Positions 21,365-34,883 of a stretch of 40,952 nt of DNA are shown piece after piece. Source of the stretch: Campylobacteraceae bacterium (lineage in GTDB: Bacteria > Campylobacterota > Campylobacteria > Campylobacterales > Sulfurovaceae); assembly GCA_026983875.1 (NCBI GenBank), contig JALSTG010000156.1, forward strand, positions 1-40,952, written 5' to 3'. A model generated the notes under the pieces. That model saw nothing but the letters and a program-made list of their open reading frames with translations, ran no database searches and was not told the origin of the DNA. The translations under genes were made by a program, and so were the position numbers. Position 1 is the first letter of the stretch, and each line of letters begins with the position of its first letter.

Positions 21365-22342
21365 CTACAACAGATTCTGCATTTTGATCAGTATGCCGTA
21401 GAGAAGGGTCTCTCTGTTTTCGGGTTTGCAGGATTTGAGCCGAAGCTCGGAGCCCAAGAGATGTTCGTAGATTTTGATCCATTTGGCGGGTGTGACTCGC
21501 GCGGCAAGGGCTGCTTTTTGCTCCTCGATCTGGCGGGGGAGTTTGTAACCCAGGATCGCTTTGGAGTCGGCGACGCCGTGGAGACGGATGTAGGCGTGAA
21601 AGAGGAAGATCTGATTGACAAAGAATTGGGTGGCGCGGAGAATGTCGGTTTCATCTTCTCCAAGTTCCAGTAGCTTTCCGATCGTTTCGGTGATCGGCTT
21701 TTTGGCGAAAAGATCGATGAGGAGGTTTTCGACGGCCAGGGGGGCGGTGGAGTAGACCAGAGTGTCGATCTCCTTGTGGCCGACGGGTTCTCCCGAGATG
21801 GCAAGCTTCTCAAGCTCTTTGGCCGCGAGGGCCAGATTGCCGTTGAGGAGGGTCAGGAGATGTCCTAGAGCGTAATCGTCTATCTCCATGTGGAGTTCCA
21901 AGGCTTTTTGTCGCAGCAACACGACACCCTCGCGAGGATTTGGCGGGAAGAAGCGGACCCAGATTCCCCCCTTCTTCTCCGTAAAACTGCTCTGCATCGC
22001 CTTGGCATCCTTGGCTGCTCCCGTAAAGGCGAAGAGGAAGTAGTTGTCGGGGTTTTTAACGGTGAGGGAGATCAGGGCATCGAGCTCCTTCTTGGGCAGT
22101 TTCTTTTCCCGGCGGATCAGCAGCAGGTTGGTCCCGCCGAAAAGCGAGCTCTGGGAGAGATAGGCCTTTGCCTGCTCAAAATCGTACTCGTCGTGATAGA
22201 GAGTCAACATAGACTCGGTTGCATCGAGATCTCTCTTGTAGCGGTCAAGATAGAAGTCGATGAGGTAATCGTTCTCACCGTAAAGAAGTACACTTCGGGG
22301 AAGGCTCTGCTTGAGGCGCTGTTCGAACTCTCGCTGATACAT
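21365..22342 (-). CDS. holA: DNA polymerase III subunit delta
   Basis: MYQREFEQRLKQSLPRSVLLYGENDYLIDFYLDRY... clamp-loader delta family signature; 325 aa. Confidence 0.85.
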   Translation of the reverse strand: MYQREFEQRLKQSLPRSVLLYGENDYLIDFYLDRYKRDLDATESMLTLYHDEYDFEQAKAYLSQSSLFGGTNLLLIRREKKLPKKELDALISLTVKNPDNYFLFAFTGAAKDAKAMQSSFTEKKGGIWVRFFPPNPREGVVLLRQKALELHMEIDDYALGHLLTLLNGNLALAAKELEKLAISGEPVGHKEIDTLVYSTAPLAVENLLIDLFAKKPITETIGKLLELGEDETDILRATQFFVNQIFLFHAYIRLHGVADSKAILGYKLPRQIEEQKAALAARVTPAKWIKIYEHLLGSELRLKSCKPENRETLLYGILIKMQNLL

Positions 22343-22496
22343 TAAAATCCTCCAGTGGAGGATGTTTTAGTGAATAGTGAATAGTGAATAGTGAACAGTG
22401 TCGGTATGCACGGCTCGGCCGTGCCTTTATTGATAATACTTTCGACTTGTGTCTTGCGACTCGTGACTGTGCCGAAGGCACCCTCAATAACCATCA
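22343..22496 (-). repeat. Composite heptamer repeat element, copy 2 (5' leader of holA)
   Basis: SD palindrome ATCCTCC-AGT-GGAGGAT (22347-22363), GTGAATA x4 (22370-22397), GCACGGC-TCG-GCCGTGC hairpin (22408-22424), degenerate ACTTGCG x4.4 (22438-22468); collinear with 24483-24650. Confidence 0.85.
22347..22363 (-). promoter_or_regulatory. SD-containing hairpin upstream of holA
   Basis: mRNA sense 5'-ATCCTCC-ACT-GGAGGAT-TTTA-ATG: the GGAGG SD lies 6 nt before the ATG and is paired in a 7-bp perfect stem. Confidence 0.6.
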
Positions 22497-24482
22497 CTAT
22501 CCCTCCCGTTCCAGCTTTTTTATCTGGGTTCCCAGAATGATCGCCTGGGGAATATTGGCCTCGGTGATTTCCACTTCAATCCGATCAAAGAGAAGGGCAT
22601 CGTAGGCTTTGAGATGGACGACGATTCCCTGCATTTCACACTCCAGGATCGCTTTAGCGCCCCGGGTCGGGTCGTCGGGGTCGATTTCGATCAGCTCCGC
22701 AGCGAAGCGTTCGCCTAAGTGCCTCTGGGCCCAGCGGGCGAATTTTCGGTCGCGGAAGTCCCATTCGGCCTTGGTGGCGTTTCGCTCCAGTTCGCTGACC
22801 CGGACGCAGAGGGGCTCGATGTTGCGCAGGAGATAGGCGTGGCGCTCTTCATCTCGATGCAAATCGGCCTTGATGAGCCGGTGGAGGATTAGGTCGCTGT
22901 AGCGTCGGATGGGGGAGGTGAAGTGACTGTACTTCTTGAAGCCCAGGCCGAAGTGACCTACATTGAAGGGCGAATAGCTGGCCCGACGCAGGGACTGGAT
23001 GATGAGGGCGTCGACCTCCGCTTCGATTCCCTGGGCGGCGGCCTCTTTCTGGATGGCTCGGATCACGGTACAGGCGTCGGCTTCTTCAGGAAGATCGACG
23101 AAGATTCCTACCGTAGCCAACTGTTCCAGAAGCTCCTCGATCTTGCCCATTTCCGGGGCTTCGTGGATCCGGAAGATTGCGTCTCCATCGCCTTCAAAGC
23201 GTTTGGCGGCGGCTTTGTTGGCTAGGAGCATGCACTCCTCGATGAGGCTATGGGCCGGAGTGCCGGTCTCGATAGTGGTCTCCTTGAGCTCGTGTTCGGG
23301 GTCGATGGCCAGCTTGACTTCGTCGGTGCGGAAGTCAAAGCCCTTTTTGAGCCGCTGTTTTCGTAGTCGCTGGGTGAGCTTCTGCAAAGGAAGAAGCCAT
23401 CGGAGAATCTCCTGCTCCGTTTCGCTAAAGTGCGTGCGTTTCCCTTCTAGTATCGCGTCGATTTCGTCATAGTTAAAGCGGCGTTTGGAGTGAATGACCC
23501 CTTCGAAAAATTCCTCTTTGATAGGCTGGAGGTTTTTGGGATCGAGAGTGATCTTCGCGATAAAGGCGAGGCGGTCGACATGGGGCTTGAGAGAGCAGAT
23601 ATTTTCGCTCAGTTCCCGAGGCAGCATGGGGAAGGCCTTGTGGGGAAGGTAGGTGGTAAAGCCCCGGAGTTTTGCCTCCTTGTCGATAGGACTGGAGTAG
23701 GGGACGTAGTGGCTGACGTCGGCGATAGCCACATAGAGGGTATGATGTTTCAGATCCAGATAGATTGCGTCGTCGAAATCCTTGGCGGTAACCGGATCGA
23801 TGGTGCAAAAGCTCAGATCCCGTAGATCGACGCGCCCTTCGATCTCCTGGGGTAGGACCTGGCTGGGGATTTTAAGAGCTTGTTCCACGCAGTCATCGGG
23901 GAAGGTATCATCCCGGCGTTCATAAAGCAGCAGGCTGATGCGCTCGTCGACTCTCGGATCGCCCAGATGGCCCAGCACTTCGATCACTTTGGAGCTCATA
24001 GCGTCGATGAGTAGCACCGTGCCCAGCTTGAAGGCCTTCAGATCCATCCCCGGCATCTCGGCGGCGATGGGCTGGGCGGTTTTGATATGAAGTACGGCGA
24101 AGTTTCCGCTCTCATCCCGGTGGGTGTAGCCGATGAGGTGGAGAGCCTCAGGACGGGTGACGAGAACGACCTTTGCCGCCGGCCGTCCCCGTCTGGCGAT
24201 GATGCGCTTGACGACTACTTCGTCACCGTTTTTTGCCTCATCCAGATCCTTGGGTTCGATGAGCAGATCTTTGTCCCCTTCAAATTCGCTTTCGACGTAC
24301 CCTTTGCCCTCCTGGGAGATCCAGAGCCGTCCCACCCGGTAGAGAGAACGCAGACGAAGCAGTTCCCGTTCGTCCTTCTCCAAAGCTCCTATACGCTCGA
24401 GCTCCTCATACTTGGGATAATCCTCGGGCTCCAGATCGGAGGGGAGAAATCCGCGGGTGAGTTGGATGCCGAAGGGAGACAT
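22497..24482 (-). CDS. rnr: Ribonuclease R / RNase II family exoribonuclease (VacB)
   Basis: RNB-domain motif SFCTIDPVTAKDFDDAIYLDLKHHTLYVAIADVSHYVPYSSPIDKEAKLRGFTTYLPHKAFPMLPRELSENICSL; HFTSPIRRYSDLILHRLI. Confidence 0.92.
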   Translation of the reverse strand: MSPFGIQLTRGFLPSDLEPEDYPKYEELERIGALEKDERELLRLRSLYRVGRLWISQEGKGYVESEFEGDKDLLIEPKDLDEAKNGDEVVVKRIIARRGRPAAKVVLVTRPEALHLIGYTHRDESGNFAVLHIKTAQPIAAEMPGMDLKAFKLGTVLLIDAMSSKVIEVLGHLGDPRVDERISLLLYERRDDTFPDDCVEQALKIPSQVLPQEIEGRVDLRDLSFCTIDPVTAKDFDDAIYLDLKHHTLYVAIADVSHYVPYSSPIDKEAKLRGFTTYLPHKAFPMLPRELSENICSLKPHVDRLAFIAKITLDPKNLQPIKEEFFEGVIHSKRRFNYDEIDAILEGKRTHFSETEQEILRWLLPLQKLTQRLRKQRLKKGFDFRTDEVKLAIDPEHELKETTIETGTPAHSLIEECMLLANKAAAKRFEGDGDAIFRIHEAPEMGKIEELLEQLATVGIFVDLPEEADACTVIRAIQKEAAAQGIEAEVDALIIQSLRRASYSPFNVGHFGLGFKKYSHFTSPIRRYSDLILHRLIKADLHRDEERHAYLLRNIEPLCVRVSELERNATKAEWDFRDRKFARWAQRHLGERFAAELIEIDPDDPTRGAKAILECEMQGIVVHLKAYDALLFDRIEVEITEANIPQAIILGTQIKKLEREG

Positions 24483-24510
24483 TCAAAATCCTCCAACGGA
24501 GGATTTTGAA
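24482..24510 (-). promoter_or_regulatory. Perfect 13-bp inverted repeat with 3-nt loop, containing the rnr SD and reaching the A of the start codon
   Basis: TTCAAAATCCTCC-AAC-GGAGGATTTTGAA on +; mRNA sense TTCAAAATCCTCC-GTT-GGAGGATTTTGA-ATG, with GGAGG 7 nt from the ATG. Confidence 0.75.
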
Positions 24511-24650
24511 GTGAAGAGTGAAGAGTGAAGAGTGAAGAACTTTGGTATGCACGGCCTGGACGTGCTTTTATCAATACTTGCGACTTGCGACTTGCGACTT
24601 GCGACTCCTCCCCCCCAATGACCAATGACCAATAACCAATAACCAATAAC
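24483..24650 (-). repeat. Composite heptamer repeat element, copy 1 (5' leader of rnr)
   Basis: SD palindrome, GTGAAGA x4 (24511-24538), GGTATGCACGGC block with hairpin (24544-24565), ACTTGCG x4.4 (24576-24606), C7 run, CCAATGA x2 + CCAATAA x3 (24615-24649). Confidence 0.9.
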
Positions 24651-24658
24651 AGCGCCCA

Positions 24659-25504
24659 TCAGGCGCCTTTCAGTTGATATTTAATCTCTTCGAGTCGCTC
24701 GATCCGCTCTTCGGTTGTGGGATGGGTGCGGAAAAGATTGGCTACCTGACCGCCGATGCCGGCGAAGGGGTTGACGATGAACATATGGGCCGTAGAGGGG
24801 TCGGCATCGTGGATCACGGCACCGCGCCGGGCGTAGTTGTCGAGCTTGGTGAGGGCTCGCTGGAGCCATTCGGGATGGCCGGTCATCAGTGCCGAGCCTT
24901 TGTCGGCTTCGAACTCCCGGCTGCGGCTGATGGTCATCTGGATGACGGTCGCGGCCAGAGGCATGATGATCATCAGGGCGATGGTAACGATGGGATTGCG
25001 GTCCCGGTCGCCTCCGAAAAACATCCCGAAATTGGCCAGCATACTGATAGCTCCGGCGATGGTAGCGGCGACGGTGCCGATGAGCATATCGTAGTGTTTG
25101 ATATGGCTCAGCTCATGGGCGATGACTCCTTCGATCTCTTCCTCGTCCAGCAGGTCCAGCAGCCCCTTGGTAACCGCCACGGCGGCGTGTTCATAGTCCC
25201 GTCCGGTAGCGAAGGCGTTGGGAACCGGATCGGGGATGATGTAGAGCTTGGGCATCGGCAGGCCCGCGCGTTGGGTAAGGCGCCGGACGATGCCGTAGAG
25301 CTCAGGGGCGCTTTGCTCGTCCACGGGCACTGCGTCGTAGTGGGCCAGGACATGCTTGTCACTGTAGTAATAGGCGTAGAAATTCATTCCTGCGGCGATG
25401 AGAAAGGCGAGGATCATACCCGTCTTCCCGCCGATGAGTCCACCGAACCAGATAAAGAGTAGGGTCAGGCCGGTCATGAGAAAATAGGTTTTGAATTTTT
25501 CCAT
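24659..25504 (-). CDS. htpX: HtpX-like membrane zinc metalloprotease (M48)
   Basis: [26 protein letters not shown]; zinc motif [24 protein letters not shown]. Start at 25504 has a good SD (AAGGAG). Confidence 0.92.
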
Positions 25505-25632
25505 AACTATCTCTCCTTCTTTTTCAATTCTATTCAATAATTTTGGGCTTCATTATAATATATTCCCCGTTTACTCTATGCAATTATGGTCGCATCGATG
25601 CAGTGGATGGTTTCCTCTTACCGATTCTTCGA

Positions 25633-34244: not shown

Positions 34245-34883
34245 CTATCCTTCTTTTTTCTTGATTTCGCGTAATTGGTCGATAAGACTCTGGAGCATTT
34301 CATAGGGAACGGCCCCTTGAATGTTCATAATATATTTACCATCTTTAAAGATGAGAGTCAAAGGAAGGGGGTAGTCCGAGCCCTGCTTTGCCAGACCGGC
34401 GAGATAATCTGCCAGGGCGTCGTTGTCCGGGGCCCGGGAGATAAAAAAATTGCTCTCGTATCGGCGCATGAGCCGACGGAGCCTCGTAGGATCAAGTTCG
34501 CTATGGACCAGGAGGCCGATGACGAAGAGTTGATCCTTGTTGGCGGCTTGTAACTTTCCTAGATAGGGGAGCATTCCCCGACAGGGCGGGCACCAGTCGG
34601 AAAAAAGGACGAGCATGACCAGAGGCTGACGGATGCGCTGGAAACGGGCTTCGTGGTCGGTGAATTCCAATATCGTCTGCCGGCCGTCGATATCGCGGAT
34701 CGTAAAACGTTTGGTCCGAGAGGCGGTTGAAGTTTCTTTGGAAACATGAACGGTCATAGGCTCGGAAGGCGAAGGTGTGGCGTTTGCTTCTTGCTTCTGC
34801 GCTTTCTCTTTGTCGCTACAGCCGGCGACACCGAAGAGGAACGATAGAAGGATCACCGGAATGATATAAGGGTAACCGTTCAC
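34245..34883 (-). CDS. Thioredoxin-like (TlpA/ResA-type) lipoprotein
   Basis: Lipobox-like LFGVAGCSDK; LVMLVLFSDWCPPCRGMLPYLGKLQ. Confidence 0.82.
   Translation of the reverse strand: MNGYPYIIPVILLSFLFGVAGCSDKEKAQKQEANATPSPSEPMTVHVSKETSTASRTKRFTIRDIDGRQTILEFTDHEARFQRIRQPLVMLVLFSDWCPPCRGMLPYLGKLQAANKDQLFVIGLLVHSELDPTRLRRLMRRYESNFFISRAPDNDALADYLAGLAKQGSDYPLPLTLIFKDGKYIMNIQGAVPYEMLQSLIDQLREIKKKEG

Follow-up and report, generated by a model that had tools for sequence, protein, structure and literature searches.

The window analysed in this study is a stretch of 40,952 bp, contig C156 of a 1.85-Mb MAG (G000) of a Nitratifractor-like member of the Campylobacterota. Comparison with rnr relatives grouped its rnr with Nitratifractor and Campylobacteraceae MAGs, followed by Sulfurovum. 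The genes htpX, rnr and holA follow each other on the minus strand and are separated by two intergenic stretches of heptamer arrays and small hairpins, with the following features:

21365..22342, minus strand: holA, 325 aa, encoding the delta subunit of DNA polymerase III, start codon at 22342 (full-length hit to NCBIfam NF006302, above cut-off)
22347..22363, minus strand: holA gene-edge palindrome; inner arm 22347-22353, loop 22354-22356 (centre 22355), outer arm 22357-22363
22368..22400, minus strand: heptamer array (ATTCACT)4.7 on the gene strand (TRF 96%), outward from holA (AGTGAAT)n
22403..22424, minus strand: oriented hairpin GGTATGCACGGC-TCG-GCCGTGC upstream of holA, -12.8 kcal/mol
22439..22465, minus strand: degenerate CTTGCGAC/CTTGTGTC heptamer array (TRF, about two 14-mer copies, 84%)
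22497..24482, minus strand: rnr, 661 aa, encoding an exoribonuclease of the RNase R family, start codon at 24482 (NCBIfam TIGR02063/TIGR00358), N-terminus conserved in relatives
24482..24510, minus strand: rnr gene-edge palindrome; inner arm 24482-24494, loop 24495-24497 (centre 24496), outer arm 24498-24510
24510..24538, minus strand: heptamer array (CTTCACT)4.1 on the gene strand (TRF 100% match), outward from rnr (AGTGAAG)n
24544..24565, minus strand: oriented hairpin GGTATGCACGGC-CTG-GACGTGC on the far side of the CTTCACT array, recurring in dispersed composite copies
24576..24606, minus strand: heptamer array (ACTTGCG)4.4 upstream of rnr (TRF)
24615..24650, minus strand: stop-proximal heptamer array (TTATTGG/TCATTGG)5.1 next to the htpX stop (TRF), G-rich outward from htpX
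24651..24668, minus strand: htpX stop codon enclosed by a weak palindrome, GGCGCC-TGATG-GGCGCT (5 bp and one G.T pair), with stronger counterparts in relatives (L032-L035)
24659..25537, minus strand: htpX, upstream neighbour of rnr (NCBIfam NF002826 over cut-off), start as called, stop codon abutting the stop-side end of the insertion

The rnr palindrome revealed perfect arms of 13 bp, the inner of which holds the SD GGAGG and extends to the first base of the ATG, while the outer directly abuts the heptamer array. Folded as RNA, this SD hairpin reached -17.6 kcal/mol (z -4.5; 0/200 shuffles equally stable); that of holA was weaker (-9.3 kcal/mol, z -1.8), with a flanking TAAAA/TTTTA also pairing beyond a 2-nt bulge. 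Both palindromes have AAAATCCTCC-N3-GGAGGAT in common. Comparison of the window with Rfam models resulted in no matches at gathering score. Elsewhere in the window, TRF reported a two-copy 20-mer (GGAACGATAGAAGGATAACC) and a 12-mer repeat, at 34838-34878 and 1746-1779.

The two composites that a first-pass annotation had described upstream of rnr and holA are real, with positions and module order as given there, and the distance from palindrome centre to the GGTATGCACGGC block is indeed 48 bp in both (24496 to 24544 and 22355 to 22403). Its 4.4 copies of ACTTGCG were found upstream of rnr only, while holA carries about two degenerate 14-mer copies instead, and rnr has a third array, TTATTGG, in addition to those listed there. 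The proposal that the repeat carries the same SD hairpin to both genes had to be abandoned, since each palindrome is particular to its gene, with an outer arm that repeats the adjoining gene edge in inverted form, and since AATCCTCC-N2-12-GGAGGATT was present solely at rnr in a search of the whole genome. Among orthologous loci, an empty state was also found: at L037, L088 and L107, htpX, rnr and holA abut each other with neither insertion nor palindrome.

Dispersed composites and heptamer arrays

When the rnr leader was compared with its own genome by BLASTn, 48 matches resulted, about 12-13 of which were composite, in agreement with the dispersed element suggested at first; many more heptamer arrays exist besides. 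On the gene strand, the composite has the order (TTATTGG)n, GGCGCC hairpin, (CGCAAGT)n, a second hairpin (arms GCACGGC or GCGTTGC, loop about 3 nt), WWACC, and (CTTCACT)n. The CTTCACT end faces a downstream start codon in 10 of the 12 distinct copies, as expected from the proposed relation to starts, and one copy, found in two near-duplicate contigs, faces a stop codon. Local duplication, the alternative if copies were lacking or none were tied to starts, is therefore set aside, as copies exist and are tied to both gene edges. Contigs C169 (L008) and C171 (L010) of the own genome are near-identical around one composite copy and are probably strain variants in one bin.

Other species revealed the same design with different units and hairpin arms, both varying freely within and between species. 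In 800 kb of Nitratifractor salsuginis (G011), 107 arrays were counted, and 400 kb held about 20 distinct heptamer units rather than a few fixed ones. As dispersed intergenic 7-bp repeats arranged head to tail, the arrays resemble the intergenic heptamer tandem repeats of the STRR/TAACTGA kind, but differ from these in their many units. The own genome is sparse in them (6 in the 223 kb sampled), and the array motif TCACTNT x4 has a patchy distribution, with 15/249 genomes of the order and 5/73 genera in a tally among good genomes. Nostoc plasmids held few arrays, too few for testing gene-edge palindromes. At several N. salsuginis loci (L163, L166, L171, L177 and others), the hairpins between arrays have a common TTTCGGTWWG-like flank and mostly 3-nt loops, while their arms vary (GCGTTGC, GTGTCGC, GCTTTGC); in the cases read, the C-rich array is found on the side of the ACC. 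The genus mate G008 displayed 42 TTATTGG-type array matches on many contigs, with neither array nor start hairpin at apaH and dxr.

Palindromes at the start and stop codons of array-bearing genes

Statistics were obtained with a simple purpose-written gene caller on 223 kb of the own genome plus array loci, 800 kb of N. salsuginis, 386 kb of G001 and 400 kb of G003. A start was considered array-adjacent with an array within 45 bp, and a start hairpin was counted at a score of 8 or more. Such hairpins occurred at 13/26 starts near arrays versus 4/667 elsewhere in N. salsuginis, at 5/25 versus 1/326 in G001, and at 0/345 starts of the array-less genus mate G003, while mirror repeats, used as a control, displayed no comparable excess near arrays. 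A hairpin with SD or start codon between array and gene is thus far commoner than chance, as had been supposed. Among array-selected starts of the own genome, 13/21 reached a score of 7 or more; an unrestricted palindrome count there resulted in weak enrichment only, since its arrays are sparse, and the signal appeared only beside arrays.

Further array-bearing starts of the own genome carry TGCCGATCATGCGAAG-GAA-CTTCGCATGATCGGCA, TAAGCATTTCTTCTCC-GACA-GGAGAAGAAATGCTTA and TACGATGGAGTTCAA-AGCATG-TTGAACTCCATCGTA, the last with its inner arm entirely within the coding sequence. At several starts, the first codons contain a CTCC or CTCCT of which the SD is the reverse complement. Loops are short (3 nt in 16 of 36 start hairpins), and the gap between the outer palindrome end and the array is mostly -1 to +4 nt at starts and -1 to +3 nt at stops. 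About half of the array-adjacent starts and three quarters of the array-adjacent stops have no palindrome. The genes with start hairpins are assorted housekeeping genes, encoding Dxr, a class-I glutamine amidotransferase, an ABC ATPase, a CDP-alcohol phosphatidyltransferase and others.

Stop codons revealed the same feature. Near arrays, stop palindromes were found at 10/36 genes versus 23/632 others in N. salsuginis (p 2e-6) and at 8/29 versus 20/308 in G001 (p 0.001), and the stop-side result rests on these two genomes; the own-genome sample displayed no excess near arrays (0/9 versus 11/231). Stems reach 16 bp, with the inner arm within the coding sequence, as in AAGGAGATCGAAGTCA-TTTTG-TGACTTCGATCTCCTT and CGAGACAGGAGGATGA-GATG-TCATCCTCCTGTCTCG, each directly followed by an array. 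An association with start codons only, on which the idea of a portable translational regulator depended, is contradicted by this enrichment, and there is no ribosome-binding site to regulate at a stop. In relatives of the window locus, the end of htpX reads CAGTTGC-GGA-GCAACTGA, GGCGCTC-GGT-GAGCGCC or CAATTGC-GGA-GCAATTGA, so that the last codons and the stop lie inside the palindrome; judging from these sequences, the inverted copy seems to have overwritten the end of the gene. At L033 and L035, the HtpX C-terminus QLRSN* lies within the first of these.

Gene edges were also swapped between genes, counting arms that reach at least 6 nt into the coding sequence, as 3 nt are uninformative with a shared ATG. 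At starts, 20 palindromes extended at least 6 nt into their own coding sequence, compared to 2.3 on average and at most 7 in 200 swaps; at stops, 7 were observed against a mean of 0.7 and a maximum of 3. Chance palindromes are ruled out by genes without arrays, by mirror repeats and by the swapped gene edges. Likewise, a MAG assembly error is ruled out as the cause, since the pattern is present in the complete N. salsuginis genome (2,101,285 bp).

Array polarity and comparison between species

Read outward from the start or stop of a gene, the arrays are G-rich in all gene arrangements, including convergent and divergent ones. The ratio of G-rich to opposite arrays was 31:1 at starts and 36:3 at stops in N. 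salsuginis, 24:4 and 34:0 in G001, and 10:1 and 8:1 in G027, a complete genome of 2,254,567 bp from another family. The arrays of G027 are often longer (up to about 100 bp) and keep the polarity, with start hairpins at 0/8, so that the polarity rule can exist without palindromes.

For comparison between species, the halves of orthologous start regions were exchanged and the mean stem score determined over 300 exchanges. Own halves scored 8.3 versus 4.7 for exchanged halves (max 5.5) at rnr in 18 species, 13.0 versus 6.6 (max 8.75) at dxr in 8 species, 7.9 versus 4.8 (max 6.2) at an apaH-like gene in 9 species, and 7.5 versus 4.6 (max 5.5) at holA in 6 species; the observed score was reached by 0/300 exchanges at each of the four genes. 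At dxr, the outer arm tracks changes of the coding sequence (ATGGTCCTG with CAGGACCAT, ATGATCCT with AGGATCAT, ATGGTGA with TCACCAT), and no palindrome was found at this locus in the array-less G003 and G004 and in G008. In Sulfurovum, rnr again carries an array and a hairpin; over all rnr loci, hairpins were present at 10/14 starts with an array and at 6/63 without, 3 of these 6 displaying array remnants in the sequence. At rnr and dxr, the loci compared, array-less relatives do not have the gene-edge copy, but these relatives are distant.

Possible origin of the insertions and known systems

Altogether, the palindromes are specific to their gene, abut the array, occur at both gene ends, depend on arrays and stay complementary between species, and the arrays are G-rich outward. 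Based on these end products, we give a probability of roughly 55% to insertions with junctions that arose by fold-back template switching on DNA and are kept perfect by the same process. An intergenic stretch would then be an insertion of heptamer arrays and small hairpins, often beginning with an inverted copy of about 7-17 nt of the gene's own edge and a short loop between the two. A 3' end at the array edge or at a break would fold back over this loop and copy the gene edge, the heptamer array coming directly after the copied edge. Recurrent template switching (quasipalindrome correction) would keep the arms matched while the gene changes, and the polarity would fit extension of 3' ends on each side of the intergenic region. 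Occlusion of SD and start codon would be a by-product, tolerated or later used. The palindromes, near-perfect Watson-Crick inverted copies of adjacent sequence with a short spacer, have the form left by template switching.

As a rival explanation, translational control at the RNA level would have the hairpin sequester SD and start codon, with selection keeping the arms complementary and the array serving as a standby site for the ribosome (S1) or as a loading site for a helicase; the role of the array would rest on a pyrimidine-rich, nearly G-free upstream sequence that lets the structured start open. The stable SD hairpin at rnr would suit such control, as would the start codon, which lies inside the inner (3') arm in 24 of 36 array-adjacent start hairpins, and the start-proximal arrays, which are C-rich and G-poor in sense. 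In addition, rnr retains an array and a hairpin with (A)AAGG in the loop/SD in many species of both Nitratifractor and Sulfurovum, and SD-sequestering hairpins regulate aapA3 in Helicobacter pylori (PMC6733600). However, the same palindromes stand at stop codons, the SD has no fixed place in the hairpin (5' arm 14, 3' arm 12, loop 8 among the 36), regulation would not require the array to follow without a gap, and the genes are housekeeping genes of assorted kinds. Mismatches in 80 distinct start stems were A.C in 11 and G.T in 5 cases among 889 Watson-Crick pairs, so that A.C is at least as common as G.U and there is no RNA-type tolerance of G.U. Fold-back copying of DNA better explains the stops, the unfixed SD, the missing gap to the array, the short loops and this mismatch spectrum, and we regard RNA-level control as a doubtful account of the whole. 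The occurrence of the hairpin at rnr in both genera could nevertheless reflect selection for a structure, and with it a functional role.

Unlikely, and offered tentatively, is an end processing of an undescribed type that would repair or refill broken intergenic DNA in bacteria of the Sulfurovum and Nitratifractor types: each 3' end would fold back and copy the gene edge, a run of G-rich heptamers would be added outward in a telomere-like manner, and the two dressed ends would be joined. If this were true, gene-edge palindromes and outward-polar arrays would be its genome-wide scars. A reverse transcriptase or telomerase-like origin of the arrays was rejected, as RVT_1 is absent from G000, G001, G005, G009, G010 and G011, i.e., from most array bearers.

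We consider it improbable that the hairpins act as mRNA boundary elements, which would shield the ends of a cistron against RNase J (5' end) and 3'-5' exonucleases (3' end) once the unstructured array has been cleaved, thereby dividing polycistronic mRNAs into segments. Judged from the sequences, such elements would account for hairpins at starts and stops and at operon junctions, but leave unexplained why the inner arms run into the coding sequence, why pairing is Watson-Crick only, why no gap separates palindrome and array, and why arrays between convergent and divergent genes have the same polarity.

A RAYT/Y1 transposase as common cause was also rejected, since Y1_Tnp is absent from the array-bearing G005 and G010 and present in the array-less G003. 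The own genome encodes a RAYT-like Y1 transposase (257-aa frame, G000:C121:5253-5582), and N. salsuginis a 143-aa Y1 protein with seven places of equal score. A conventional non-autonomous mobile element of the REP/BIME or MITE type, copied to rnr and holA together with its own terminal hairpin, would agree with the dispersed oriented core (array plus GGTATGC hairpin) and with the motif common to the two palindromes, but is very improbable and, for the gene-edge palindrome, mostly refuted, as the palindrome at the end differs from locus to locus, the presence of Y1/RAYT transposases does not follow that of the arrays, and array units and hairpin arms vary freely.

The mirrored gene edges seen in this group of marine Campylobacterota point to an unusual way of copying DNA and not to a portable switch. 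Any mechanism has to satisfy two rules that can be put to the test: the inverted copies of gene edges abut the arrays, and the arrays are G-rich outward from starts and stops alike. The cultured N. salsuginis has about 100 arrays in 800 kb, so that both rules are open to laboratory study. They also bear on the translation of essential genes such as dxr and holA, whose start codon lies within or beside a strong stem.

Bacterial heptamer arrays have been recorded for a long time, with no accepted origin or function to our knowledge. REP/BIME elements with RAYT transposases are small oriented extragenic palindromes; in this they resemble the elements described here, whose own genome also carries a RAYT-like Y1 gene, but here the ends are locus-specific and RAYT does not track the arrays. 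A search of open PMC text revealed no gene-edge palindromes tied to heptamer arrays. A similar arrangement is known from MacGregor's TAACTGA direct repeats, heptamers found in marine Beggiatoaceae, Cyanobacteria and Bacteroidetes (PMC4679880), which are also intergenic arrays of few copies each with a patchy distribution. They lie near start codons and are oriented to them, with reversed orientation after a stop, in agreement with the polarity rule found here. In contrast to our arrays, there is one unit instead of many, and neither gene-edge palindromes nor internal hairpins were reported. The cyanobacterial STRR and the GGGAATC/GGGGAYT repeats of Xanthomonas and Nostoc are likewise many-copy intergenic heptamer tandem repeats; the latter are G-quadruplex motifs, unlike those of this study, and inverted gene-edge copies are not described for either in the part of the source available to us (PMC4692102).

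The aapA3 hairpins of H. pylori (PMC6733600) are short, occlude the SD and come from the same phylum, but belong to a single toxin family with a defined regulation, and neither heptamer arrays nor gene-edge copying were reported for them. Template switching can create and maintain perfect hairpins (PMC8794818). The mutations described there concern rRNA and microRNA genes and are neither tied to tandem arrays or gene ends nor recurrent at many sites of one genome; as in the palindromes of this study, perfect stems arise in one event and the arms are complementary without stepwise compensation.
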